In this document: positions 1,280 through 37,464 of the stretch, piece by piece | Numbering within the stretch: position 1 is the stretch's first letter | How the letters are laid out: every line of letters starts with the position of its first letter | NCBI GenBank assembly: GCA_017443945.1 | Contig: JAFSXS010000015.1 | Location: 1-40,333 of the forward strand | From: Synergistaceae bacterium | GTDB lineage: Bacteria; Synergistota; Synergistia; Synergistales; Aminobacteriaceae | Direction: 5' to 3' | Length of the DNA: 40,333 nucleotides | Notes under the pieces: generated by a model | What the model saw: only the letters and a program-made list of their open reading frames with translations | What the model was told of the DNA's origin: nothing | Database searches by the model: none | Position numbers and translations under genes: made by a program

Positions 1280-3078
1280 ATGATGAGGAAGCGGTTATTA
1301 TTTGCCTTACTGTTTTTGCTTGTAGGTGCGTTGCCTGCCTGCGCGTCGTCAATGCTTTATACTTTCTCGTCGGGTGATATTTTGCTTACTAATGCGAATC
1401 CTGCGCCCACTTACGGATTAGGACGAATCGATTTTGACGAGATAACCGGCGAACCTGTGCCGACTGTCATACTTTCCGGCGATAACAGACAGCACGCGCT
1501 CGGAGAATTTACGCGCAATAATCAAAGGTATATTTACGACTCAAAAGTTCGTAAGCCCATTGAGAATATCACTTATTATGATGTCTATAATGCAACAAGC
1601 GGAATAGATAATAAACTTGTGAGAGATTTTACAATAAACGTGAATCTTAACCCGATAGCGTCATGTGATTTGACTCTTGCTCCTGATGCACAAGGTTATA
1701 TTTACGCGATTCAAGATAATAATATTTTGACTCGTTATGACATGCTTAACTGGGGCGGAACTGTTACCGCTAGACTTGAAACCGGTTATAATGTTTACAG
1801 CCTCGTTGGACTGACTAATAACGCAAATTTTGTATATGTATGGTGTTCGCAGCGTTCAGCAATAAACGCGGACGGACTTATACTCCCGAAAAAAGCGATA
1901 TTTACGTTTATGACACTGTCTCAAGAGATTCAGCGCAAATTATCAGGATTGATGAAGCAGCTAACCCGCCTTCATATAGTGTTATAGTTGTTATAGTAAC
2001 AAGCAAAGACATTAACGCATGGAACATCGACAACGAGTCTCCGATTCCTGATAATAGAGGCGGATTTTATTTCGGTGCTTATTCCGGCGACATAAACGCA
2101 GTACCGGGCAGCAACACCAGCAAAGATTGTACAGTTTATCACTGGAACAACACGAAAAAATTAACGCAGACATCAGTTAAGAACGCACAGACAACAGCAG
2201 ATCTTGTTATCGCTGAAGGACAGCACGCAGGAAAAATTGTTACATTCGTTTATGCGGCGGCTACAAATCTTAACAGCGATTTCAAAATAGAGAGCTACAT
2301 CTGGGACGGCGTTAATAATGTTGATACACGAATTGATGACGGCACTATGATAGGTGCAGAGCTTGAGAAGCCATTTAATGACGGCAGCAACGGAATTTAT
2401 TTCATGATGGAATTAACATTAGCATCAGAAGACTCTGACGCGCTTTGCCACTGGAACAACACAGAAGGCGTTAAAACAATTATGTCGTCAGATATGGAGC
2501 TTGAGGTCGAGAATCCCCCGTTAGATAACAATGTAGGATTTTATTTCGTCAATACAAATTTCCGCGCAGATTCTCCCGAAATTGTCTCAAAAGATGGTCA
2601 AATTACCGTTAGTGTAGACGTTGGCATGGTAAGTGTAGACATGAAACTTTATCATTGCACGGGCTGGACAACATATCCGCAAGTTGTGTGCGATCTTGGA
2701 GTCTTCCGCGCTCCTGCAAATGCTTTCGTAGGTGCAAGCAATGATTTCTTTATGGTCAGAGAGCTTGTACAGTGCGAAAATGGAATTTTAGAGGATCTCG
2801 AACACGATTTATTATTTGTCGGTGCAGGCCCTATCGGCGGAAGATTCAAGATGACAGTATTTGATTGGGACGAGACGACTCAGCCGAATCTAACGAATCA
2901 AAATATTATCGCTACATTTAATGATAGTGATTTAGGCGGTTATGTTGATGTTGCGACGGCGGTATTATTTGATTAGGAGAACAGTGGAAGTCCTAACGGT
3001 TCAGGCGGCTGTAATTCCGGAATGTTTGGTATTATTGCGCTTGGTCTTGCAGGGTTAATCGCACTTAGGAAGAAATAA
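1280..3078 (+). pseudogene. Interrupted secreted protein with Synergist-CTERM sorting signal
   Basis: One gene split in two ways. The 5' part (from ATG 1280) has a signal peptide: MMRKR, a hydrophobic core and ACAS. Reading frame 2 stays sensible to about 1835; the same protein then continues in frame 1 (from about 1834-1840) up to TAG at 2974-2976. The switch fits a single-base deletion near 1831-1845, in a TATGTATG-like stretch. Directly after the TAG, in the same frame, codons 2977-3075 give a GSGGCNSG motif, a hydrophobic stretch (FGIIALGLAGLIAL) and RKK before TAA at 3076. This is a textbook Synergist-CTERM tail for envelope sorting. The body repeats a pattern of a beta-rich segment followed by HWNNT (for example near residues 100 and 205 of the second part), so it may be a beta-propeller-like surface protein; that is inference. 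It is called a pseudogene because there are two lesions, though a sequence error at the frameshift is possible. Confidence 0.8.
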
Positions 3079-3717: not shown

Positions 3718-4887
3718 TTATTTTGACTTTTTGCCGGTAACGTCAAATTTATATGCTTTCTCGTAATTTTGGAACGGCCACACAGTAAGAGTCTTTTGCC
3801 TGTTATTATAAATTGCGCTGTATTGAGTCATTGATATTCCTGTAGGCTTTGTCATGGGATTCTGTGCGACGCTTTGAAGGATAACGAGAGCTGCCGACTC
3901 TGACATTTGAGTTACCCCCGTTTGATTATCTCTGAATCTTTCGAGCTGGCTTGCAATCGTGATAAATCTATTATAGCCGTGTCCATAGCCGAATTTGTAA
4001 ATAGATTTTCCGGTTTTGTCGGTGAATAATTTTGCTTTCTCGCGGAGATTCCCGTTTTTGTAATAAGAGTCTTCAATGTCGTCATAAGCTAGATAAAAAT
4101 TTGTTGCAATGTCTGAACTTATCACGGAAATTATATTATTTCTGCTCTCGATTACTGCGTGATTGCCGATTGAGTCACTCACGAATAAATGCTCGTTCTG
4201 CCAGTCTTCGGGAGAAAGAATTTTATTTGAGAACGCTTTATTAATGGCCTCGTACACGTTTGCGCAGTCGTCGAGAATGTAACGCAGTAAAATACTTGAT
4301 CCGGCGGGAATTTTTGCGGGGTGGTCTCCTGATTTGATGTCAACTCTCATTATTGCAGCAAATAAACCTTTTTCGTTAATGCCGTCCATGCATTCATATG
4401 GAAGAGTGTCTAAAATTTTCATGTCAAAACCTGATTTGCTCGGCCCCTTTGCGCGTAAAAATTTATTGTCAGGGTCGCACCAGATTGCGTCGGCTACTGC
4501 GATTGACTCGTATTTTCCTGAAGGTTTGCAGTGAAGAATGATATTGAGTCCCGTTAAAGTTTGGTCATCTTTCGAGATTCTGTGCGGATAGTCGTAATTA
4601 TGTGCTGAAATTGGGTCGCCTTGCAGATTACGAGTGAAAAACGCCGAACAGCCGTGATTAATATTTTCGTCGCTTGAGATTAACGCATTAATAATTTCAG
4701 GTTTGTAATAATCGCCGGTGTAATTCATGTAATATAAATAGCCTTCACGATCAAGTCTGCGGAAATCATTGCGTGATTCAATTGAGTAAATTATGAATCC
4801 TACGCAAATAAGGAACCACAATATCATATAAGATAGACAAATTTTATAGAATCTGTCAGACCGCTTTATTTTCTCGTTAATGTTCAT
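3718..4887 (-). CDS. Membrane-anchored Ntn-hydrolase (choloylglycine hydrolase / peptidase C45-like)
   Basis: 389 aa from ATG 4887, one base after the stop of the gene before it; TTG 4905 is an alternative. A single membrane segment spans about residues 16-36, so the enzyme domain is probably outside the cytoplasmic membrane. Cys80 in HGCSAFF is the likely N-terminal-type nucleophile, followed by NLQGDPISAHNYDY, which resembles the fold's early G..RN.D block. GINEKGLFAAIM near residue 155 corresponds to the family's NEKGL motif. These enzymes cut linear C-N amide bonds, for example in conjugated bile salts, penicillins or acyl-homoserine lactones. The substrate cannot be told from the sequence. 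Unlike secreted bile-salt hydrolases, the Cys is internal, so either processing or anchoring differs. It is co-transcribed with a glutaredoxin-like gene. Confidence 0.7.
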   Translation of the reverse strand: MNINEKIKRSDRFYKICLSYMILWFLICVGFIIYSIESRNDFRRLDREGYLYYMNYTGDYYKPEIINALISSDENINHGCSAFFTRNLQGDPISAHNYDYPHRISKDDQTLTGLNIILHCKPSGKYESIAVADAIWCDPDNKFLRAKGPSKSGFDMKILDTLPYECMDGINEKGLFAAIMRVDIKSGDHPAKIPAGSSILLRYILDDCANVYEAINKAFSNKILSPEDWQNEHLFVSDSIGNHAVIESRNNIISVISSDIATNFYLAYDDIEDSYYKNGNLREKAKLFTDKTGKSIYKFGYGHGYNRFITIASQLERFRDNQTGVTQMSESAALVILQSVAQNPMTKPTGISMTQYSAIYNNRQKTLTVWPFQNYEKAYKFDVTGKKSK

Positions 4888-4888
4888 A

Positions 4889-5158
4889 TTAATTTGCTGC
4901 CTCAAAAACTTTTTTCACGTTCGCAAAGCACTCTTGTTTTGACTCGCCTCTATGAGACTCATAAATTTTTTTGCCGTCAACGAACATAGAAGGCACGAAG
5001 TAATAATCATATTTTGCTGAAATTTCCGGATGCTTGTTCTCGTCAACCCATTCAATATTGACGTTATAATCTGCTGATAATTCTTTCACGGCCTCGCGGG
5101 CTTGTTTACAGTACGGGCAGCCTTCAATGAAGAACGCTAAAATTTTTTTCTCTGACAT
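4889..5158 (-). CDS. Glutaredoxin-like thioredoxin-fold protein
   Basis: 89 aa, the usual glutaredoxin size. The redox motif CPYC stands at residues 14-17 after the first beta strand (ILAFFIEG). The cis-Pro segment FVPSMFVDGKKI follows around residues 54-65. It probably reduces disulfides or glutathione-like mixed disulfides in the cytoplasm. It is the first gene of a two-gene minus-strand unit with the Ntn hydrolase, and it diverges from the isochorismatase gene. A GGGGGA stretch lies about 10 bases before the ATG. Confidence 0.88.
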   Translation of the reverse strand: MSEKKILAFFIEGCPYCKQAREAVKELSADYNVNIEWVDENKHPEISAKYDYYFVPSMFVDGKKIYESHRGESKQECFANVKKVFEAAN

Positions 5159-26022: not shown

Positions 26023-28182
26023 ATGAGTTTCACATTGGCAGAGGCCGCTGGGATCGCAGGAGTTTCTGACATTCGCAAAAAAGTTCAAAGCTATTCCGAT
26101 ATTGGCGTGGCTTTGTTAATGGTACTCATTATTATAATGATGGTTGTACCCCTTCCGACGTGGCTAATAGATTTGTTGCTGTCTATGAATATCACGCTTG
26201 GAGTAGTTACGCTTTTAGTTACATTTTATGTGAAGCGCGCATTAGATTTGTCGATATTTCCGACGTTATTATTAATTTCTACGTTGTTCAGGCTCGCACT
26301 AAATGTTTCTACGACGAGATTAATTTTACTTTACGGCAACGCAGGCGAGTTAATAAATGCATTCGGAAATTTTGTCGTCGGAGGAAATTACATCGTAGGA
26401 ATTATCATGTTCTTGATTCTCGTAATAATTCAAATGTTAGTAATCACCAAAGGCGCAGAAAGAGTCGCAGAGGTCGCAGCACGATTCACACTCGACGCAA
26501 TGCCCGGTAAACAAATGTCAATTGACGCAGATTTAAATTCGGGACTAATCGACGAACAAGGCGCAAAGCAAAGAAGGCAGGACATACAGAAAGAAGCAGA
26601 TTTTTACGGAGCTATGGACGGTGCATCAAAATTTGTTAAGGGCGACGCTATAGCAGGACTCATAATCACAACTATAAATATAATCGGCGGTCTGTCAATC
26701 GGGATATTTATGCGTGGTATGGACGCTGCAAACGCTGCATCACATTATAGTTTATTAACAGTAGGCGACGGACTTGTCGGACAAATTCCGGCGTTGTTAA
26801 TGTCTACCGCAATGGGCGTTATAGTTACAAGAGCTGCTGCATCGTCAGAACTTGGCCCCGATTTAGTAAATTCTTTCACACGTTATCCGAGACCGTTATA
26901 TATTGCCGCAGGTATGTTATTATGCATGGGATTATTGCCGGGAATGCCGACGATTCCATTTTTGACTCTTGCTGTGTTAATGGGCTTTCTTGGTTACACT
27001 GTCGGACGTGAAGCAAGTGTTCAAGCAATCGAAGCAGAAGAGCAGGCAGCAAAGACTCCATTACCGGCGGGCGCACCTCAACAGGCAGGAGCAGCAGCAG
27101 GAACATCAGCACCCGCAGAAGGCGCAAAATCTGAACCAGTTTCACCCGAAGACGTTATGAAATTATTAACAGTTGAACCAATGGAAGCAGAAATCGGTTA
27201 TGCAATTATCCCGTTGATTGACCCTGCACAAGGCGGCGACATGTTAGACAGAATCGGGACAATTCGTAAACAAATGGCTCTTGAAATGGGAATAGTTGTA
27301 CCTCCCATAAGAATACGTGATAATATTCAAATTAAGCCTACTGAATATATTTTGCGCGTAAAAGGTGCTGAAGCTGGACGAGGAGAATTACTCCCAGATC
27401 ATTATCTCGCAATGAACACAGGAGGCGCAGAAGAAGATTTAATCGGCGTTCCTACGAAAGAACCTGCATTCGGACTCCCGGCGTTGTGGATTTCTCCTGA
27501 TTTGCGCGACAAGGCCGAAGCAATGGGTTACACTGTTGTTGATGCTCCGAGCGTGCTTGCGACTCATTTGTCGGAAGTTATTCGCAAAAACGGCGCAGAA
27601 TTATTGACTCGTCAGGAAGTCCAGAAATTAACTGACATGGTAAAGGAGACAGCCCCCGCCGTTGTGAGTGAGTTATTAGCGTCGCTTTCACTGGGAGAAA
27701 TACAAAAAGTTTTGCAGAATTTAATACGCGAACAGATTCCGATTAGAGATCTTGTTACAATTTTTGAGGCACTAGCTGACTACGGCAAAATGTCAAGAAG
27801 TGTAGATTTTCTCACAGAACGCGCAAGAGAGGCATTATCACGACTCATTTCTCTAAAGATTCAGGGCCCCGACGGAGTAATAACAGCTGCGACTCTTTCG
27901 CCAAACTGGGAGCAAAAAATTATGGCAGGAGTCGACGGAGATTTAACACGAGGCTGGCAATTAAATTTAGATCCCCGCGAGGTTCAGAAGATGATAAATG
28001 CAATTTCGCGCGCAATGGAAGAAATGATTGTGAAAAATTTGCCTCCTGTTTTGCTTGTTCATCCTGATGTAAGATTAATAGTCAGAAGATTAATAGAAGG
28101 CTCGATAACAAATATTTTCGTAGTGTCATATAATGAAATAACGCGCGGTATTCAAGTTAAAACCGTTGGAATGGTGGAATAA
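26023..28182 (+). CDS. flhA: Flagellar export gate protein FlhA
   Basis: 719 aa, normal FlhA length. It is the large membrane protein of the type III flagellar export gate. About eight membrane helices occupy the first 330 residues, with the strongly conserved stretch FPTLLLISTLFRLALNVSTT at about residues 85-104. An Ala-rich linker (about 335-375) leads to the cytosolic chaperone-docking domain. The ATG has GGGG nearby; flhF begins right after its stop. Partner export genes (fliPQR, flhB) are not in this window. The TnpB element lies just upstream. Confidence 0.97.
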   Translation: MSFTLAEAAGIAGVSDIRKKVQSYSDIGVALLMVLIIIMMVVPLPTWLIDLLLSMNITLGVVTLLVTFYVKRALDLSIFPTLLLISTLFRLALNVSTTRLILLYGNAGELINAFGNFVVGGNYIVGIIMFLILVIIQMLVITKGAERVAEVAARFTLDAMPGKQMSIDADLNSGLIDEQGAKQRRQDIQKEADFYGAMDGASKFVKGDAIAGLIITTINIIGGLSIGIFMRGMDAANAASHYSLLTVGDGLVGQIPALLMSTAMGVIVTRAAASSELGPDLVNSFTRYPRPLYIAAGMLLCMGLLPGMPTIPFLTLAVLMGFLGYTVGREASVQAIEAEEQAAKTPLPAGAPQQAGAAAGTSAPAEGAKSEPVSPEDVMKLLTVEPMEAEIGYAIIPLIDPAQGGDMLDRIGTIRKQMALEMGIVVPPIRIRDNIQIKPTEYILRVKGAEAGRGELLPDHYLAMNTGGAEEDLIGVPTKEPAFGLPALWISPDLRDKAEAMGYTVVDAPSVLATHLSEVIRKNGAELLTRQEVQKLTDMVKETAPAVVSELLASLSLGEIQKVLQNLIREQIPIRDLVTIFEALADYGKMSRSVDFLTERAREALSRLISLKIQGPDGVITAATLSPNWEQKIMAGVDGDLTRGWQLNLDPREVQKMINAISRAMEEMIVKNLPPVLLVHPDVRLIVRRLIEGSITNIFVVSYNEITRGIQVKTVGMVE

Positions 28183-29670
28183 ATGAGAGTTACGAATCAA
28201 ATTACATTTACAGCGAAAGACGACGCAGAAGCACTAAGGCTCGCAGCTGAGAGACTCGGCAGGGACGCTGTTATTTTATCTACGCAGGTAATCAAAGAGG
28301 GTGGAGTCTTTGGCCTCTTTCAGCGTTCAGTCTTGAAGGTTACAGCAGGAATAATAGAAGACGACTCGCCCAAACCTCAGCCCGCAAAGCCGAGAACACC
28401 TGCAAATAATTCAACAGTTGCAGCTATGGACGATGAGACAAGACGAGAAAATTTAATCGCCTTCCAAAAATTAATGGAGTTCAAGGAAAAATCTTCAAGC
28501 GGTCAATTACCTTCACAGCCCGTAAATAATAACTCGAATCAAGAGCAGCCTATCACATTAGGTGAAGAAGGTTATAGATTGCCGTCTGACAACGTAAAAA
28601 TTTCGCCTGAAGGTTTGCGCAATGCATACGGATTAACAACGAGACCCGCACCCGTTACACCTCCTCCGCAACCTGCGCCCGTAATGCCTCCGATTATGAA
28701 TCAGACTCAGCCTCCAGCAATTAATAACGATGACGCAAAGGCACTCAAGAATCAAGTCGGAGCGCTCGCAGATAGAATCGATTTATTGCTGCAAAGAATT
28801 TCGGCAGTAGAGTCAGGAGTCGCAGCTCAGGCAGCACAGGCACAGAAAAATAACGCGTTTCAAGCTGGTATGCCAAATTTAACGGGAGAAGATTCCGGCG
28901 TTGAAGGCCGTTTGCGTTCGTCAGAGGTCGACGAGAAATATATACGCAAATTATTAGCAGATTATAGTATCATGGCTCGCAAGGACAAGAATAAAAAATT
29001 GCCGTTCACAAAGTGGCTTGCGACTCAAATCGAGTGTTCCGGCGACAATGGAAGCGACGCAGCAGGAGGCCGAAAAGTTATGCTGCTTGGCCCCACAGGA
29101 GTCGGAAAAACTACGACGATTGCAAAATTAGCGGCGATTAAAGCTCTATGGGAACATAAAAAAGTTTTGCTGCTCACAAGTGATACATACAGAATCGCGG
29201 CTGTCGAGCAGTTAAAGACTTACGCAAAAATTTTAGGTGTCCCCATTGAAATAATATTTGACATTGCTACGATTCCCGGAGTCGTCAATCAGCACGAGAA
29301 CGCAGAAATTATTTTACTCGATACCGCCGGACGTTCACAGCGCGATAAAAAAAATATGGACATGTTCGAGAATTTATATAACTCTTTTGCGCCCGATGCT
29401 GTTCATTTAGTGTTATCTGCTAACATGAAATATAAAGATATGCTCGACGTTGTAGAACATATTCCAAATATACCGGTGTCGCATTTATTATTTACGAAAC
29501 TTGACGAGACTGTGAGCTACGGATCAATTTTTAATATTCATCAAGTTATGGGATGTCCAATATCGTTTTTGACGGTTGGTCAGAATGTCCCGAAAGATAT
29601 AGAGACGGCTTCAGGCTCAAGAATTGCAGATTTTCTCATGAAGTCCGAAGAAGAACGCAAGAGGGGTTAA
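28183..29670 (+). CDS. flhF: Flagellar biosynthesis GTPase FlhF
   Basis: 495 aa. SRP-type GTPase that sets flagellum position. N-terminal B domain (about 1-65) with MRVTNQITF..., then a Pro/Ala/Asn-rich linker (about 66-230), then the NG domain: GPTGVGKT (303-310), DTYRIAAVEQLKTY, LLDTAGRS and TKLDE. It is immediately adjacent to flhA (stop TAA then ATG), so translation is coupled. FlhG encoded next is its known partner. Confidence 0.95.
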   Translation: MRVTNQITFTAKDDAEALRLAAERLGRDAVILSTQVIKEGGVFGLFQRSVLKVTAGIIEDDSPKPQPAKPRTPANNSTVAAMDDETRRENLIAFQKLMEFKEKSSSGQLPSQPVNNNSNQEQPITLGEEGYRLPSDNVKISPEGLRNAYGLTTRPAPVTPPPQPAPVMPPIMNQTQPPAINNDDAKALKNQVGALADRIDLLLQRISAVESGVAAQAAQAQKNNAFQAGMPNLTGEDSGVEGRLRSSEVDEKYIRKLLADYSIMARKDKNKKLPFTKWLATQIECSGDNGSDAAGGRKVMLLGPTGVGKTTTIAKLAAIKALWEHKKVLLLTSDTYRIAAVEQLKTYAKILGVPIEIIFDIATIPGVVNQHENAEIILLDTAGRSQRDKKNMDMFENLYNSFAPDAVHLVLSANMKYKDMLDVVEHIPNIPVSHLLFTKLDETVSYGSIFNIHQVMGCPISFLTVGQNVPKDIETASGSRIADFLMKSEEERKRG

Positions 29671-29674
29671 AGCA

Positions 29675-30649
29675 ATGCCGGCAGATAATTATAACCCAGA
29701 TCAGGCGGGGGATTTAAGGCGAATGGTGCTAGACAATAGACAACAAACAAGGATTCCTCAAAGGCTGCATACAATTTCAGTATTGAGCGGCAAAGGCGGA
29801 GTCGGAAAAAGTAACATATCTGCGGCGTTATCGTTTGCGCTTGCTGATTACGGAAAAAGGGTCGTGCTTATCGATGCAGATTTAGGCATGGCAAATTTAG
29901 ATATTTTGTGCGGTGTTACGAGTGCAAGATATAATATTTCGCATTTAATCGAGGGATCGCGCAATTTAAACGAGATTCTTGTACACTTCAGGTCGTCGCA
30001 GAGAGCCTTACACAAACACGGGAGTGTCGCATTACTTCCGGGCGGTACAGGCTTGAAAGAAATTGCAGATTTGGATGATTACTCGATGGAAAGATTATTT
30101 GCTTCATTGACCGGCCTTGAAGAAATTGCGGATTATTTAATCATGGACGCGGGCGCAGGTATTCATAAAGGCGTATTATCGTTTGCATATGCTTCTGAAA
30201 TTACGTTATTAGTTACGACTCCTGAACCTACGAGCGTTAGAGATGCATACGGCGTAATAAAGTCTTTGGGCTCAAATGCGTGGGGAGGCTCGGAAAATCC
30301 TGCGTCGGGCTTAATGTTGATAGTAAATATGGCTTCAAGCACTAGAGAAGCTCAAGAGGTCGCCGAAAGAATTAGACTCGCGTCAATGCAATTTTTAGGT
30401 AATGCACCAGTTTATTTGGGCTGTGTCCTGCGTGATAGCTTAATAGAAGAGTCAGTTAAGAACTGGAAAATTTTTTACAGGTCAGACCCCGAATCGCCTG
30501 CAAGTATCTGCGTTAGAAATTTGGCCGGTGAATTATTGAGATTTTGCGAGGGTGCTAATATAAAACGTGAACAGCTGCCGGAAAAATCCGGGGGAGTAAT
30601 CGACTTCTTCAGGAGGCTGACAAAGAATCTTTTTTCCGACAAGAAATAA
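29675..30649 (+). CDS. flhG: MinD-like flagellar number regulator FlhG (YlxH)
   Basis: 324 aa. The deviant Walker A SGKGGVGKS (38-46) and LIDADLGMANLDILCG identify the MinD/ParA ATPase family. In the flhF-flhG pair, FlhG stimulates FlhF GTP hydrolysis and limits flagellum number. The N-terminal stretch with Gln/Arg (DNRQQTRIPQR) is the site used to activate FlhF in related proteins. It starts four bases past flhF. Confidence 0.94.
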   Translation: MPADNYNPDQAGDLRRMVLDNRQQTRIPQRLHTISVLSGKGGVGKSNISAALSFALADYGKRVVLIDADLGMANLDILCGVTSARYNISHLIEGSRNLNEILVHFRSSQRALHKHGSVALLPGGTGLKEIADLDDYSMERLFASLTGLEEIADYLIMDAGAGIHKGVLSFAYASEITLLVTTPEPTSVRDAYGVIKSLGSNAWGGSENPASGLMLIVNMASSTREAQEVAERIRLASMQFLGNAPVYLGCVLRDSLIEESVKNWKIFYRSDPESPASICVRNLAGELLRFCEGANIKREQLPEKSGGVIDFFRRLTKNLFSDKK

Positions 30650-30664
30650 ATATAAAGCTATAAT
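30636..30664 (+). promoter_or_regulatory. Possible internal promoter for cheB onward
   Basis: CCGACA (30636-30641), 17-base spacer, TATAAT (30659-30664). It overlaps the end of flhG and gives a leader of about 85 bases before cheB. Confidence 0.45.
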
Positions 30665-30697
30665 AATTATGAATCGAAAATTTATCGCAAATTATAG

Positions 30698-30757
30698 AAA
30701 GGAGGTCGAATCTGCTGCCATGTGTAAAAATTTAGCAGACAGCAGAAAAATAGAATG
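30698..30757 (+). promoter_or_regulatory. cheB leader with hairpin between ribosome site and start codon
   Basis: A strong AAAGGAGG (30698-30705) stands about 50 bases before the cheB ATG (30755), too far for normal use. A perfect 7-bp stem, TCTGCTG (30711-30717) with CAGCAGA (30740-30746), lies between them. If folded, it brings the site to about 13 bases of the start. The same stretch also holds a 15-codon ORF starting at ATG 30720 whose stop (TAG) lies past the cheB start, so coupling is another option. Confidence 0.55.
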
Positions 30758-31828
30758 CCACCATTAGGCAGAATAAGAGTTCTTGTAGTTGATGACAGTG
30801 CATTAATGCGCCAGTTCATAAGCGATATTCTTAAATCAGATCCGAGAATTGAAGTAGTCGGGACTGCTAAAGACGGCAAAGACGCACTTGCACAAATAAA
30901 ATTATTGAAACCTAATATCGTTACAATGGATGTAGAAATGCCCAATATGAGCGGCCTTCAAGCACTCGAAGAAATAATGAAGACTAACCCTCTGCCCGTT
31001 ATAATGGTCAGCTCGATGACTCAAGAGGGTGCAGAAACAACAATGAAGGCTCTTGCGCTGGGATGTGTTGATTTTATCGGTAAGCCGTCGGGGTCAATCT
31101 CATTAAATATTCGCGAGATCGGCCAAGAATTAATTGATAAGGTCATAGCAGCAAGTACAGCAAAATTAAGAACGAAAGCAGGATTTTTCGGAGGCGGCGC
31201 GAGTGTCTTACATGCTCCCGAATATCGCAGAATGACTCCGCCCATGCACACGGGAAGGCGTGATATAGTAGCGATTGCAAGTTCAACGGGGGGGCCTATG
31301 GCGTTAGGTGAATTGATTCCCAAATTGCCGAAAAATTTTCCTGTTCCTATTGTAATTACTCAGCACATGCCGAAAGAGTTTACAACATCGTTCTCTAATA
31401 GGTTAAATGCGTCTTCACAATTAGAAGTTGTAGAAGGTTTTGACGGATTGACTCTCAAGCCCGGACGAGTGGTAATCGCCCCCGGTGGAAGTCATTTAAT
31501 CGTCAAGCGTAGAAACGGTGCAATGGTGTGCGGACTCTCTGATGCTCCGCCGGTTTTGTCAGTTAAGCCCGCAGCAAATATAATGTTTATGAGCGTTGCA
31601 GATGAGTACGGCGGAAATGTTTTATGCGTTATCTTAACAGGAATGGGCAGAGACGGCACAGACGGAGGAATAGCACTTCACAAAAAGGGTGCTTACGTAA
31701 TCGCAGAGAGTCAGAAAACATGCGTTGTTTATGGAATGCCTAAGGCCGCTGTTGATGCCGGAATAGTTGATGAAGTTCTGCCGCTTAATGAAATTCCTGA
31801 TGCAATGGTCAGACTCGTAAAGAATTAA
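30755..31828 (+). CDS. cheB: Chemotaxis methylesterase/glutamine deamidase CheB
   Basis: 357 aa, a typical two-domain CheB. A receiver domain (1-125) has DDSA near 13-16 and the phosphate-accepting Asp59 in MDVEMP. The effector domain follows, with the catalytic serine in ASSTGGPMAL, His in QHMP and Asp in GMGRDGTDGG. It removes methyl groups from receptors and deamidates glutamines to reset sensing. No other ATG is plausible; frames upstream of 30755 are blocked by stops. Confidence 0.95.
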   Translation: MPPLGRIRVLVVDDSALMRQFISDILKSDPRIEVVGTAKDGKDALAQIKLLKPNIVTMDVEMPNMSGLQALEEIMKTNPLPVIMVSSMTQEGAETTMKALALGCVDFIGKPSGSISLNIREIGQELIDKVIAASTAKLRTKAGFFGGGASVLHAPEYRRMTPPMHTGRRDIVAIASSTGGPMALGELIPKLPKNFPVPIVITQHMPKEFTTSFSNRLNASSQLEVVEGFDGLTLKPGRVVIAPGGSHLIVKRRNGAMVCGLSDAPPVLSVKPAANIMFMSVADEYGGNVLCVILTGMGRDGTDGGIALHKKGAYVIAESQKTCVVYGMPKAAVDAGIVDEVLPLNEIPDAMVRLVKN

Positions 31829-31848
31829 ATAAGGGGGAAAAATTTATC

Positions 31849-33918
31849 TTGGCCGATATGGATATGAGTCAGTATCTGGGAGCATTTCTCGATGAGACTG
31901 ACGACAACGTACAAAAATTAGATGATTTATTACTCGCTCTGGAAAAAAATATGGTCGATATGGACGTAATAAATGAAATTTTCAGAGCAGCCCACACGCT
32001 AAAAGGTATGGCGGGCACAATGGGATTTACAAATATGATGGGCTTGACTCACGCAATGGAGGACAGACTCGACGCAGCTAGAAAAGGTACAAGGCCGTTG
32101 ACTGAAGCAGATATGAATCTTTTATTTCAGGGACTCGACACACTTCAAGAAATGGCAGACTCAATCAGAGGCGGCGGAAATGACTCACATATTGATGTTT
32201 CGGGAATGGTACAAGAATTAAGGCGTGAAGGCCCTGCACCTGCACCAGCTCCGGCACCTGCAGCAGAGTCGGAATCGTCTTCAAGTTCTGAAGGCTCGAA
32301 TCTTTCATCGCAGGACGCAGAATGGGTAAAGGCTGCAAACGCTGAAGGCAAAAACGCTTTTAGTGTTCATGTTACATTGAGTGAGAGTTGTTTATTAAAG
32401 GCTGCACGCGCTTATATGGTCGTGAATAGACTCGAGGAAATGGGCGAAATTTTCAAGGCCGAACCTCCGACAGAAGCACTAGAGAAAGAAGAATTTGATT
32501 TCGACTTCACTGTTTATGTAGCAACGCCCGCACCTGCTGAAGAAGTCAAAGCAGCTATTGAGAAAATCGGCGACGTTAAATCGGCTGACGTTGAAGAAGT
32601 TCACGCAAGCGAATCACCTGCACCCGCTCAAGAGTCAGCACCCGCACCAGAGACAAAACAGGAAACACCAGCACCAGCACCGGCAGCACCTGCACCAGCT
32701 CAAGCACCAGCACCAGCTCAGCAGCAGCCCCCAACCGGACGCAAAGAAACTATCAAGAAGGGCGGACAAACCGTCAGAGTCGATATAGGCAGGCTCGATA
32801 AATTAATGAATCTTGTAGGCGAGCTTGTTATCTCACGTGCCAGAATCGAAAGACTCGTTCAGGAAGCAAGACTCAGACAATTTGATGATACTTTATCGCA
32901 GTTAGGCAGAATTTCCGGCGACATTCAAGAGCTCGTTACAAAATTGCGCATGGTGCCTGTATCATTTACATTTGATAGATTCCCGCGCTTGATTCGTGAT
33001 TTGTGCAAAACGTTAAATAAAAATGTTGAGCTTGTACTTGAGGGCGAGGATACGGAATTAGACAGAACAGTTATTGACGAAATCGGCGATCCTATGGTGC
33101 ATTTGATTCGTAACTCAATGGATCATGGAATCGAACACCCCGACGAACGCAAAGCACTCGGCAAACCCGAAAAAGGTATACTCAAAATCGCAGCTTATCA
33201 GGAAGGAAGCGGAGTCGTTATTGAAGTATCAGATGACGGCGCAGGCATTGATCCCGAAAAAGTCAAGAAAAAAGCTGTTGAACGAGGCATAATTTCAGAC
33301 GACAGGGCCGCAATAATGAGCGATGAAGAAGCCCAGCAATTAGTATTATTGCCCGGTTTCAGTATGGCAAAGCAGGTTACAGACTTATCCGGACGCGGAG
33401 TCGGAATGGACGCAGTAAAAACTAAAGTCGAGCAGCTCGGCGGACAATTTGATTTATCCAGCAAGAAAAACGAAGGGACTCACGTTTATATAAGGCTGCC
33501 TTTAACGCTTGCTATAGTTCTTTCACTGTTAATAAAGGTCGGCAACGAGACTTATGCAATATCGCTTGAGAACGTCGAAGAAACTATAATGGTACGCAAA
33601 GAAGACATTAAGACAGTTCACGGCGAACCTACAACACTTTTGCGGGGAGAAGTGCTTTCACTTAATGATTTAGGCGATATTCTAGGCTCTGAAGGTGTCG
33701 AACATGACAGATACGAATATCCCGTAGTTGTCGTGAAAATCGGCAAGAATAAAATCGGCTTTATCGTGAGTGAATTAATCGGCCAGCAGGAAATAGTTAT
33801 AAAATCGCTCGGTAGATTCTTGGCGAAAATTGACGGGATAACGGGCGGGACTATTTTAGGCGACGGCAATGTAGCATTAATTCTCGATGTAGCTTCGTTT
33901 TATTCGACAAAAGGCTAA
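31849..33918 (+). CDS. cheA: Chemotaxis histidine kinase CheA
   Basis: 689 aa. P1 has the phosphorylated His49 in FRAAHTLKGMAG. A long Ala/Pro-rich linker (about 255-300) follows the P2 region. Then come the dimer helices (RLDKLMNLVGELVISRAR), the HATPase domain (HLIRNSMDHGIE, DDGAGI, GRGVGMDAV) and the CheW-like C-terminal domain. The start is TTG 31849 with AAGGGGG upstream. It phosphorylates CheB and CheY; cheY, cheW and cheR are not in this window. Confidence 0.96.
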   Translation: MADMDMSQYLGAFLDETDDNVQKLDDLLLALEKNMVDMDVINEIFRAAHTLKGMAGTMGFTNMMGLTHAMEDRLDAARKGTRPLTEADMNLLFQGLDTLQEMADSIRGGGNDSHIDVSGMVQELRREGPAPAPAPAPAAESESSSSSEGSNLSSQDAEWVKAANAEGKNAFSVHVTLSESCLLKAARAYMVVNRLEEMGEIFKAEPPTEALEKEEFDFDFTVYVATPAPAEEVKAAIEKIGDVKSADVEEVHASESPAPAQESAPAPETKQETPAPAPAAPAPAQAPAPAQQQPPTGRKETIKKGGQTVRVDIGRLDKLMNLVGELVISRARIERLVQEARLRQFDDTLSQLGRISGDIQELVTKLRMVPVSFTFDRFPRLIRDLCKTLNKNVELVLEGEDTELDRTVIDEIGDPMVHLIRNSMDHGIEHPDERKALGKPEKGILKIAAYQEGSGVVIEVSDDGAGIDPEKVKKKAVERGIISDDRAAIMSDEEAQQLVLLPGFSMAKQVTDLSGRGVGMDAVKTKVEQLGGQFDLSSKKNEGTHVYIRLPLTLAIVLSLLIKVGNETYAISLENVEETIMVRKEDIKTVHGEPTTLLRGEVLSLNDLGDILGSEGVEHDRYEYPVVVVKIGKNKIGFIVSELIGQQEIVIKSLGRFLAKIDGITGGTILGDGNVALILDVASFYSTKG

Positions 33919-33933
33919 AAGGAGTAATGTTTA

Positions 33934-34572
33934 ATGGCTGATATAGCGTCGTTCAATGCGTTACAGCTTGATGCAATTCGTGAAGTCGGAAATATAGGCA
34001 CTGGCAACGCTGCTACTGCTTTGAGCGGCTTATTATCGCGTATGATAAATATGAACGTTCCGCAGACTGAATTAGTTTCGATCTATGAGCTTGCGGAACA
34101 TTACGGCGACCCTATGCAGATAGTCGGTGCTGTTTTCGTGCGGTCTCTTGGCGGCTTTCAATGCAGCTTGATATTTATTCAGAATGAGGAAGACGCAAAT
34201 TTAATGGTCGAGTTGTTGTTAAAGCAGCAGTTCGGCTCGCAAATTCCGATTAACGAGATACCGCAGGACATGATTGACAGCGCATTAAGTGAAGTAGGAA
34301 ATATAGTATTAAGCTCGTTCTTGAACGCTATAAATTTATTAATCGGCACTCAGCATCAAATAAGCGTACCCGGTGTAGCACATGATATGTTGAGTTCGAT
34401 TCTTGATGTAGTAGCTTCGATTTATGGGCAGATGGGAGAGACCGCCCTGCTCGTTAATACAGAACTAAGCGTAGAAGGTCTTGAAGATGGCCGGACAATT
34501 TCCGGGCATATAATATTAATTCCCGACCCTGATGCCCTCGATTTGCTGCTAAGAAAGCTGAAGGTGATGTGA
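33934..34572 (+). CDS. cheC: CheY-P phosphatase CheC
   Basis: 212 aa. Two phosphatase-type helices are seen: AIREVGNIGTGNA near the start and SALSEVGNIVLSSFLN at about 115. These carry the E..N residues that remove phosphate from CheY-P. It usually works with CheD, encoded next. AAAGGAG lies before ATG 33934. Confidence 0.94.
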   Translation: MADIASFNALQLDAIREVGNIGTGNAATALSGLLSRMINMNVPQTELVSIYELAEHYGDPMQIVGAVFVRSLGGFQCSLIFIQNEEDANLMVELLLKQQFGSQIPINEIPQDMIDSALSEVGNIVLSSFLNAINLLIGTQHQISVPGVAHDMLSSILDVVASIYGQMGETALLVNTELSVEGLEDGRTISGHIILIPDPDALDLLLRKLKVM

Positions 34573-35063
34573 TGGCCGAACCTAGTATTGTTTTAGGCAT
34601 GGCAGATTTATACGTCGCAAGAGCACCTATAAAACTTGTAACTCTTGGGCTTGGCTCGTGCATTGGGCTTGTAGTGTTTGACCCTCTCGCAAAAATTGCC
34701 GGGATGGCTCATATAATGCTGCCTGACTCACGGGGTCTCAAAGGTTCGGAAAAAGTCGGCAAGTTCGCCGATACTGCTGTGCCTGCCATAATAGAAGAAA
34801 TGTTAAAGCAGGGTGCTAACAGATCCAGAATAAAAGCGAAAATCGCCGGAGGTGCGCAAATGTTCGCGTTACCCGGTGCAAGTGCGGAGTTCCTGACTGT
34901 AGGCGCAAAAAATGTACGTGAAACAACCATGAGGCTTGCAAGAATGGGAATAGCTCTCGTTGCTTCTGATACAGGCGGCAATAAGGGACGCACTATAGAG
35001 TTTTCGACAAGCAATTGGATGCTGAAAATTAAGACGCTCGGAAAAGGAATAAACGAGATATGA
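34572..35063 (+). CDS. cheD: Receptor glutamine deamidase CheD
   Basis: 163 aa from ATG 34572, which overlaps the cheC stop in ATG/TGA fashion; a GTG one codon earlier is possible. Catalytic Cys30 (LGSCIGLVV) and His47 (GMAHIMLPDS) are visible, with Thr in the A-G-GAQMF region after. CheD deamidates receptors and binds CheC. Its stop overlaps the next start. Confidence 0.94.
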   Translation: MAEPSIVLGMADLYVARAPIKLVTLGLGSCIGLVVFDPLAKIAGMAHIMLPDSRGLKGSEKVGKFADTAVPAIIEEMLKQGANRSRIKAKIAGGAQMFALPGASAEFLTVGAKNVRETTMRLARMGIALVASDTGGNKGRTIEFSTSNWMLKIKTLGKGINEI

Positions 35064-35815
35064 CGACAGACGAGGAAAAAAAATTATGGGATGATTTTTC
35101 CCGGACTAGATCACTAGCTGTCCGTGATGAAATTGTAAAGCGTTATTTGCCGCTGATTAAATATGTAGTCGGCAGAATGGCTGTAACTCCTCCGCAGGGA
35201 CTTGATTATGAAGATATTTTAAGTTTCGGCGTGTTCGGACTTCTTGACGCAGTTGACAAATTCGACCCGTCAAAAGGTTTTGTATTCCAGACTTATGCAA
35301 TACCGAGAATCAGAGGTGCAATTTTAGACGAGTTACGTAAATGCGACTGGTTCTCACGTACAGGGCGCGAAAAAGTTCAGAGGCTCAATAAAGCTATGGA
35401 AAAAGTTTTGCGCGATAAAGGCGAGCTTAAAGACGAGTGGCTCATTTCTGAATTAGGCATAAGCGAAGAAGAATATTACGAGACTCAAGAATTAGCCTCG
35501 CGGGGTTATATTACTTCACTCGATGACACTAACCCGTTAGATGACGGCGATGTACCTATTGAAGCAACTATTGCAGACGATAGAGAGACAGCAGCTGACA
35601 GGTTAGACGACGAGAGCGACAGACAGCAGTTAATAGCAGCTTTACAGGAGTTGCCGGAAAAAGAACGCACAATGTTGAGTCTTTATTATTATGACGGGCT
35701 GACTCTAAAGGAAATCGGCCAAGTTTTAGGCGTGTCAGAGAGCAGAGTCTCACAGATTCACGGCAAAGGGTTATCAATGTTACGTACTATATTAAAAGCT
35801 AAGATGAATGAATAA
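35060..35815 (+). CDS. fliA: Flagellar sigma factor FliA (sigma-28)
   Basis: 251 aa. Region 2 includes LDYEDILSFGVFGLLDAVDKFDP and FVFQTYAIPRIRGAILDELRK; region 4 is at LTLKEIGQVLGVSESRVSQIHGKGL. It directs RNA polymerase to late flagellar and motility promoters. It starts with a four-base overlap with cheD, so the sigma factor is produced with the chemotaxis proteins. An anti-sigma FlgM was not seen here. Confidence 0.95.
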   Translation: MTTDEEKKLWDDFSRTRSLAVRDEIVKRYLPLIKYVVGRMAVTPPQGLDYEDILSFGVFGLLDAVDKFDPSKGFVFQTYAIPRIRGAILDELRKCDWFSRTGREKVQRLNKAMEKVLRDKGELKDEWLISELGISEEEYYETQELASRGYITSLDDTNPLDDGDVPIEATIADDRETAADRLDDESDRQQLIAALQELPEKERTMLSLYYYDGLTLKEIGQVLGVSESRVSQIHGKGLSMLRTILKAKMNE

Positions 35816-35847
35816 ATAATTTTTTCTCACTCAGGAGGTGAATTTAT

Positions 35848-37464
35848 TTGCTCAACACAGACGTATTTGATCTGCACGCACAGTCCGACGGGATTTATTT
35901 ATCGTGTAACAGCAAAGATTTCAAGGAAAATGACGTTTATGCGTTCTTGAAAGAATATGGAATCTTGCGCTATGACTTCAAGGCGATACGAAATTTTATT
36001 AAAGACGGTCAGACATGCAAAATTTGCGGACGTAACCCGGCACTTGAGAAAGACGCAAAAGTTAATGTCTCACTCGCAGGCGATAAAATGTCAGCGTCAA
36101 TCACTATAGAACCGCCGTTTTTCGCTAAACCTTGGCCGAAGCTCGATGAAGTTATTGCGGTTTTACATGCTTACGGAATCAAAGTCGGAATCGATACAGT
36201 TGCAATACAATCATTATTAGCGCGTAAACTTGCAAATGAGTCAGTTGTCGTAGCAAAGGGGACTCCACCTATCGAAGGCAGCGACGCATATATTGAATTA
36301 ATAAAGGATCCTGATAAGCCGTTCGAGGTCAGAGACGATGAAAAAATTGACTTCTGGAGCCGCAGCACTATTGTTACAGTTCACCCCGGCCAGGAAGTTG
36401 CGATAAAACATCCTTTAGTGAACGGCAAAACCGGCGTTGACGTTACCGGAGCAGCAGTCAGAGCACAACCAGTAAAAAACGTAGAATTTTCTTTCGGTGA
36501 AGGACTCAAGCGCGACCCTGAGAACCCGTTAATTTTATTAGCAGTCGCAGAAGGTCAGTTAAAGAATGATAAAGGCCGTCTTGTTGTGCTGCCTGAATTA
36601 ACTATCGGGAATGATATAGATTTCAGCGTCGGCAGTATTGATTTTACGGGAGCTGTTAATATTCGCGGTTCGGTGCGTGAGGGCTTTCACGTTGCAGCAC
36701 AGGGAAATATCGAGATTAACGGCATGATTGAAGGCGCAGACGTTGACTCGCAGGGAGTAGTAATCATTCACGGCGGTGTCAGAGGCATGGGCAAAGGCAC
36801 TATACGCGCAAATAATGACGTGAGTCTAAGTTTTGCGGATCAGGCTACAATCAGGAGCGGCGGAAGTATTCTCGTGAAAAACTCTGTCCTTCACAGCAGA
36901 TTATATGCACGCAGGGCTGTTATTTCGTTAGGAGGCGGCAGACATTCACAGATTGCAGGCGGGCGGGTTGATGCAGGTCTTGAAGTCTCTTGCAATATTT
37001 TAGGCTCTGAAATGGGCACTAAGACAGAAATTATTGTCGGGACTCCTCCTGATATGCTCGAAAAGCGAAAAGTTTTCACGGGAGAAATTAAACGCTGCGA
37101 GGAAAATCTTGAGAAAATCGAGCCGAATTTTGCATTGTTGAAAAAATTAGAGTCAGCTGGTCAATTAGACGACTCAAAACGCGCCATGATGATGGATTTA
37201 ACAAAAATGAAGTTCCAGCTTCAGGCAGCACGCGATAATATGCAGAAGGAGCTTGACGACCTCGAAGAACAATTAGCACTAGTCCGCGATAAAGGCATTG
37301 TCAGAGTCAAAGATATTTGTTATCCCGGAGTTGTTATTTCTGTCAGAGGCTTAAATTATATCGTTCATGAGATTTGCAAATTTACGTCATTTATTGCCGA
37401 CGACGAAAAACGCTGCATTGTCTTAAAACCGTTCGATTATATGGCCGGCCACCTTGGAGGATAA
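35848..37464 (+). CDS. FapA family protein (DUF342)
   Basis: 538 aa. FapA-like proteins are found near flagellar genes; their role is not settled. An N-terminal mixed domain leads to a long beta-helix-like repeat region (about 245-370: VNIRGSVREGFHVAAQGNIE, GVVIIHGGVRGMGKGTI, IRSGGSILVKNSVL), then a coiled coil (about 395-475). The start is TTG 35848 with AGGAGGTGAA upstream. It follows fliA in the operon. Confidence 0.88.
   Translation: MLNTDVFDLHAQSDGIYLSCNSKDFKENDVYAFLKEYGILRYDFKAIRNFIKDGQTCKICGRNPALEKDAKVNVSLAGDKMSASITIEPPFFAKPWPKLDEVIAVLHAYGIKVGIDTVAIQSLLARKLANESVVVAKGTPPIEGSDAYIELIKDPDKPFEVRDDEKIDFWSRSTIVTVHPGQEVAIKHPLVNGKTGVDVTGAAVRAQPVKNVEFSFGEGLKRDPENPLILLAVAEGQLKNDKGRLVVLPELTIGNDIDFSVGSIDFTGAVNIRGSVREGFHVAAQGNIEINGMIEGADVDSQGVVIIHGGVRGMGKGTIRANNDVSLSFADQATIRSGGSILVKNSVLHSRLYARRAVISLGGGRHSQIAGGRVDAGLEVSCNILGSEMGTKTEIIVGTPPDMLEKRKVFTGEIKRCEENLEKIEPNFALLKKLESAGQLDDSKRAMMMDLTKMKFQLQAARDNMQKELDDLEEQLALVRDKGIVRVKDICYPGVVISVRGLNYIVHEICKFTSFIADDEKRCIVLKPFDYMAGHLGG

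Follow-up and report, generated by a model that had tools for sequence, protein, structure and literature searches.

The locus at positions 1280–3078 of the window, the whole 40,333-nucleotide stretch of DNA analysed here, is very probably a pseudogene of recent origin, derived from a gene for an accessory surface protein that is sorted by MrtS and predicted to be β-propeller-like. The stretch is contig C15 in the 2.4-Mb metagenome-assembled genome (MAG; 114 contigs, 96% complete, 3% contamination) of a Synergistaceae gut bacterium belonging to a rumen-type lineage. The gene at this locus is a further case of a known kind of surface protein, the Synerg-CTERM kind, and it is broken. Related species carry intact and differently broken copies, which points to an ordinary dying gene rather than a switch between anchored and released forms.

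Lesions and age of the window gene

The gene is divided over two open reading frames on the forward strand. The first (1280–1987) has an ATG start and encodes the signal peptide together with the N-terminal region of the protein; it is homologous to relatives until about position 1876, then continues out of frame to a TAG at 1985–1987. The second (1840–2976) encodes the remaining body and is homologous from about 1876 to its TAG. Residues 24–232 of the open homolog in genome G007 matched the window in frame +2 by tblastn. A one-base frameshift had been reported near 1835 by the first-pass annotation; it is present, but homology to relatives puts it at about 1871–1881, some 40 bases downstream.

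A run of six A (1889–1894, forward strand), 8–18 bases past the frameshift, is the only obvious slippage-prone site nearby. Slippage there could sometimes restore the body frame and give a signal-peptide-bearing, tail-less, released protein. Few residues would be changed by such a slip, and a homolog in G006 also changes frame at a homopolymer. However, six A is a short run for efficient slippage, the body additionally lacks about 55 codons, and the aligned run of G007 is interrupted; we consider this highly improbable.

Both lesions originally described were found, and two further changes had been overlooked. One is the in-frame loss of the approximately 55 codons relative to G007, with its junction at about 1909–1914 (forward strand) between two YN/YD-coding sites; G007 residues 233–283 have no tblastn match in the window gene. 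As nucleotide alignment of this region was poor, the position of the deletion was taken from the protein alignment. A comparable block is missing at this site in the congener G026 as well. In the intact protein of G016 the block corresponds approximately to residues 208–266, a length that would roughly equal a single propeller blade. The other change is a 9-base near-duplication (1981–1998, forward strand; VIV VIV), adding three residues relative to relatives.

The in-frame TAG (2974–2976, forward strand) follows one codon past the last invariant body residue (F377 of alignment A1) and is flanked by Asp before and Glu after. It had been placed exactly before the sorting tail; the stop is present, but it lies where the linker begins and precedes the signature Cys (3010–3012) by 11 codons. 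Beyond it the detached tail frame (2977–3078, forward strand) is open, as first described, through the linker, GGCNSG motif, hydrophobic stretch and RKK to a TAA at 3076–3078. Measured against intact homologs, the gene has several frame-breaking lesions, as a pseudogene does: the frameshift and the TAG, in addition to the in-frame loss. The copies in G007, G016 and G022 are open.

In the window genome the frameshift would allow only the first third of the protein to be made behind the signal peptide, with the 55-codon block gone and the tail cut off by the TAG. From these sequence features we infer that the locus gives no functional product and that the gene was dispensable in this lineage. 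The first open reading frame could still yield a functional secreted fragment, and a recently split, still useful gene would also fit, with which the otherwise clean reading frames agree. Because the sequence was assembled from a metagenome, sequencing or assembly errors might instead account for one or both of the point lesions, leaving the gene open save for the in-frame loss. Neither site is a long homopolymer, though, and breakage is common in this gene family, since other genomes show different, unmistakable lesions, among them a large insert and a sizeable deletion; we hold such errors to be very unlikely. An assembly error at the frameshift alone would leave the TAG, block loss and duplication standing.

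Inactivation of the pseudogene appears recent, one of the two options raised by the first-pass annotation. Besides the TAG, no stop was present in the 563 body codons counted. Taking one stop in 563 body codons as the clock gives roughly 28 neutral substitutions, or 1.6% per site. For the tail, the same clock gives 1.6 substitutions and 0.04 expected stops (P(no stop) = 0.96; 95% upper bound, 0.19 stops). Amino-acid-changing positions were not in excess on the window lineage, with 46 lineage-specific changes falling at the first two codon positions and 21 at the third, compared to 41 and 22, respectively, for the intact G007 gene (Fisher p = 0.71), in a weak test that counts only sites where the outgroups (G016, G025 and G032, two of them broken copies) agree. 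No relaxed phase is visible on the window lineage, and the inactivation is therefore taken to be recent.

The sorting tail and the question of readthrough

The window tail alone scored 12.1–12.2 bits against the Synerg-CTERM model TIGR04564, below the cut-off of 22.5. The tails of the same gene in G025 (23.8 bits) and G032 (23.7 bits) exceed this cut-off, and the Synergist-CTERM label first given to the window gene therefore holds by homology rather than by its own tail score. The layout of such tails is seen in 2977–3078, with the signature Cys, a hydrophobic stretch and a basic C-terminal end. This tail is not in frame with the signal-peptide-bearing body (frameshift at ~1876, TAG at 2974). 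The window gene descends from a Synerg-CTERM member but is broken.

MrtS, the predicted cognate protease of Synerg-CTERM tails, is encoded in the same genome (NF040589, 263 bits; cut-off 130). It was reportedly described in a 2024 paper. At E-values up to 10, TIGR04564 gave 16 matches in the genome; the other 15, several of them weak, lie in uninterrupted frames of at least 230 amino acids. With other tailed genes and MrtS in the genome, the sorting system is present and its window substrate broken. The window gene shares with Synerg-CTERM/MrtS proteins the tail layout, signature Cys, above-cut-off homologs and a protease in the genome, and differs in its frameshifted body and its tail severed by the TAG. 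Literature searches on Synergist-CTERM/MrtS, CTERM sorting in Synergistetes and pseudogenes of rumen Synergistetes returned nothing on the window gene.

In the MYXO-CTERM system, according to PMC11980579, such tails are cut by a related intramembrane protease (myxosortase MrtX) and tag variants are released. That system has in common with Synerg-CTERM a Cys-containing signature, a membrane helix, a basic end and the related protease; it belongs to another phylum and another tail family, and the processing shown for MYXO-CTERM would extend to Synerg-CTERM by analogy. If it does carry over, the intact protein would be exported, held by the tail helix and probably lipidated on the Cys. An intramembrane protease would then free it from the helix, and the protein would stay surface-anchored.

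The second option raised by the first-pass annotation was that the TAG is partly read through, giving an anchored form with the tail and a free form without it. The tail is indeed open, with its signature Cys, hydrophobic stretch and basic end, MrtS is present, and an unrelated tailed gene in G030 has a TAG 23 codons ahead of its tail match. Against this, none of the 37 tRNAs found has a CUA anticodon (the MAG being 96% complete, a missing contig is possible), and the best match to the PylS profile, at 21 bits, is far below the cut-off of 178. The RNA flanking the TAG shows no more folding than shuffled sequence does (z = −0.67). The 15 other tails of the genome end long open frames without stops, and in alignment A1 none of the 10 other homologs has a stop between body and tail, the two being in one open frame at the TAG site. 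The frameshift upstream takes the signal peptide out of the frame of the TAG, so that a ribosome would arrive at the TAG without it unless it had slipped. In-frame stops of all three kinds (5 TAG, 6 TAA and 2 TGA) occur in S8-protease matches of the genus. We regard readthrough as exceedingly unlikely; readthrough or recoding of the TAG was rejected on the tRNA inventory, the lack of a PylS match above cut-off, the fold at the site, the 15 uninterrupted tails and the upstream frameshift.

Readthrough had been proposed on the premise that an unneeded tail should decay, which does not hold over this span. The tail DNA of the pseudogene survives because the time was too short for about 100 bases to be hit. 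With 0.04 stops expected and two gutted relics in relatives (G035 and G023) that retain a legible tail with much of the body gone, tail survival is uninformative on readthrough. In general, a sorting tail that still looks intact downstream of a stop lends little weight to readthrough: some 100 bases of tail should outlast the inactivation of the body, as the two relics demonstrate.

The base after the window TAG is G, because of which stop context alone is undecisive. Among 28 mechanical open reading frames of at least 200 codons in the window, 3 end in TAG, a count that says little since two of these are pieces of this gene. A promoter and terminator scan returned 9 promoter-like sites (5.5 expected) and 1 terminator-like site (2.0 expected), and was not used.

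Repeated loss within the genus

Homologs were found in 13 of 43 genus genomes: 12 of them, the window genome included, and the gutted G035 through a full-length query. The contig scan gave no match with the window protein as query and 9 loci with the alignment as query. The relatives are mostly Synergistaceae or Synergistales MAGs from goat, sheep and deer rumen or reticulum. In G007 the upstream neighbour is citG-like; that of the window gene is similar, and is named from a match under the cut-offs. A more distant relative in a Synergistes MAG (L091) has an open frame of 618 amino acids.

Further decay in relatives, in combination with clean reads over both lesions, had been named beforehand as the mark of a plain pseudogene. 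The decay is seen in the sense that eight of the 13 copies, including that of the window, are broken, each differently (G000, G006, G013, G023, G025, G032, G035 and G041). The G025 copy has a frame change past the signal peptide, a TGA and an insert of about 365 bases whose ends are hairpin-like. G032 carries a 13-base tandem duplication, G013 a TGA and a TAA, and G041 a TAA. In G035 about 480 codons are gone and the frame is changed, while G023 retains scattered fragments. The frame change in G006 (L025) lies at a seven-G run directly past the signal peptide; this tract may be phase-variable, or the change may come from faulty assembly. Five copies are in open frames (G007, G012, G016, G022 and G026), a tally that includes G026 with its in-frame loss, G012 with an unclear start codon and G007 with a tail reaching about 22 residues past the basic cluster. 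The count of 8 in 13 excludes weak matches or matches to tail, signal or C-terminus only (G021, G039, G040, G051, G075, G076 and G078), as well as a third place in G035 and a second in G016.

As a control, none of the 30 best-scoring S8-protease copies was broken (8/13 vs 0/30, p = 9e-6), a biased comparison, since choosing the best scores means choosing intact copies. Across all 120 S8-protease matches of the genus, 13 have an in-frame stop. What the control shows is more decay in an accessory gene than in a widespread one, and nothing beyond that. The C45-like hydrolase gene next to the pseudogene was unusable for this purpose, being present in 1 of the 43 genomes, its own.

The family is thus one of accessory surface proteins with many independent losses inside one genus, and this repeated loss is the only mildly notable point of the locus. 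Listeria inlA, a surface protein gene whose product uses a different anchor, offers a parallel. According to PMC11555985, inlA carries premature stop codons and is recurrently shortened by them in natural isolates; the protein is unrelated, and the variation lies within one species, whereas the window case compares species. Loss or release of an anchored propeller-like protein might be favoured now and then in rumen-type Synergistaceae, for example if phages used it as a receptor or the immune system targeted it; stops that cut off the tail and frame changes at homopolymers would then act as switch points. We think this quite unlikely.

The G025 insert (L033:1632–1976) interrupts the homolog and resembles a small IS200/IS605-type element.

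In the genus-wide TIGR04564 scan, nine places with short tail frames among the matches listed were examined, leaving out frames that begin in the first few hundred bases of a contig. Four of these (L035, L040, L041 and L042) end at a contig edge and L038 adjoins Ns. L043 is a second tail after a complete gene end, and L036, L037 and L039 are different genes in which the frame changes ahead of the tail. At L043 (G009:C8) the second, near-identical tail-bearing stretch lies about 200 bases after the end of the tailed gene, as if duplicated. In L036 (G029:C71) and L039 (G011:C276) the frame changes in the linker just ahead of the tail. L037:1115–1240 (G030:C272) shifts frame within the body and carries an in-frame TAG 23 codons ahead of its Synerg-CTERM tail match; this TAG, like that of the window gene, is flanked by Asp before and Glu after.

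The intact protein and other genes of the window

Intact relatives comprise a signal peptide, a body of about 600 residues with a predicted β-propeller-like fold, and a Synerg-CTERM tail that includes the signature Cys. Pfam gave nothing above cut-off for four open-frame homologs. The predicted model of the intact G016 protein is mostly β (pLDDT 75, pTM 0.75). Its best structural matches were eIF3b, DPP4 and similar proteins (Z 9–11.6, rmsd 4.5–8.5), the top one at Z 11.6 and rmsd 4.7 over 336 residues; these are presumably propellers. The model suggests a surface-anchored, propeller-like protein with a putative binding or scaffold role.

The C45-like hydrolase gene (3718–4905, reverse strand; 48 bits, cut-off 85) has no match in the 42 other genus genomes and was possibly acquired. 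Further along, positions 26023–37464 hold a flagellar and chemotaxis cluster (FHIPEP, SRP54-type GTPase, ParA-like, CheB, CheA-like and FapA).
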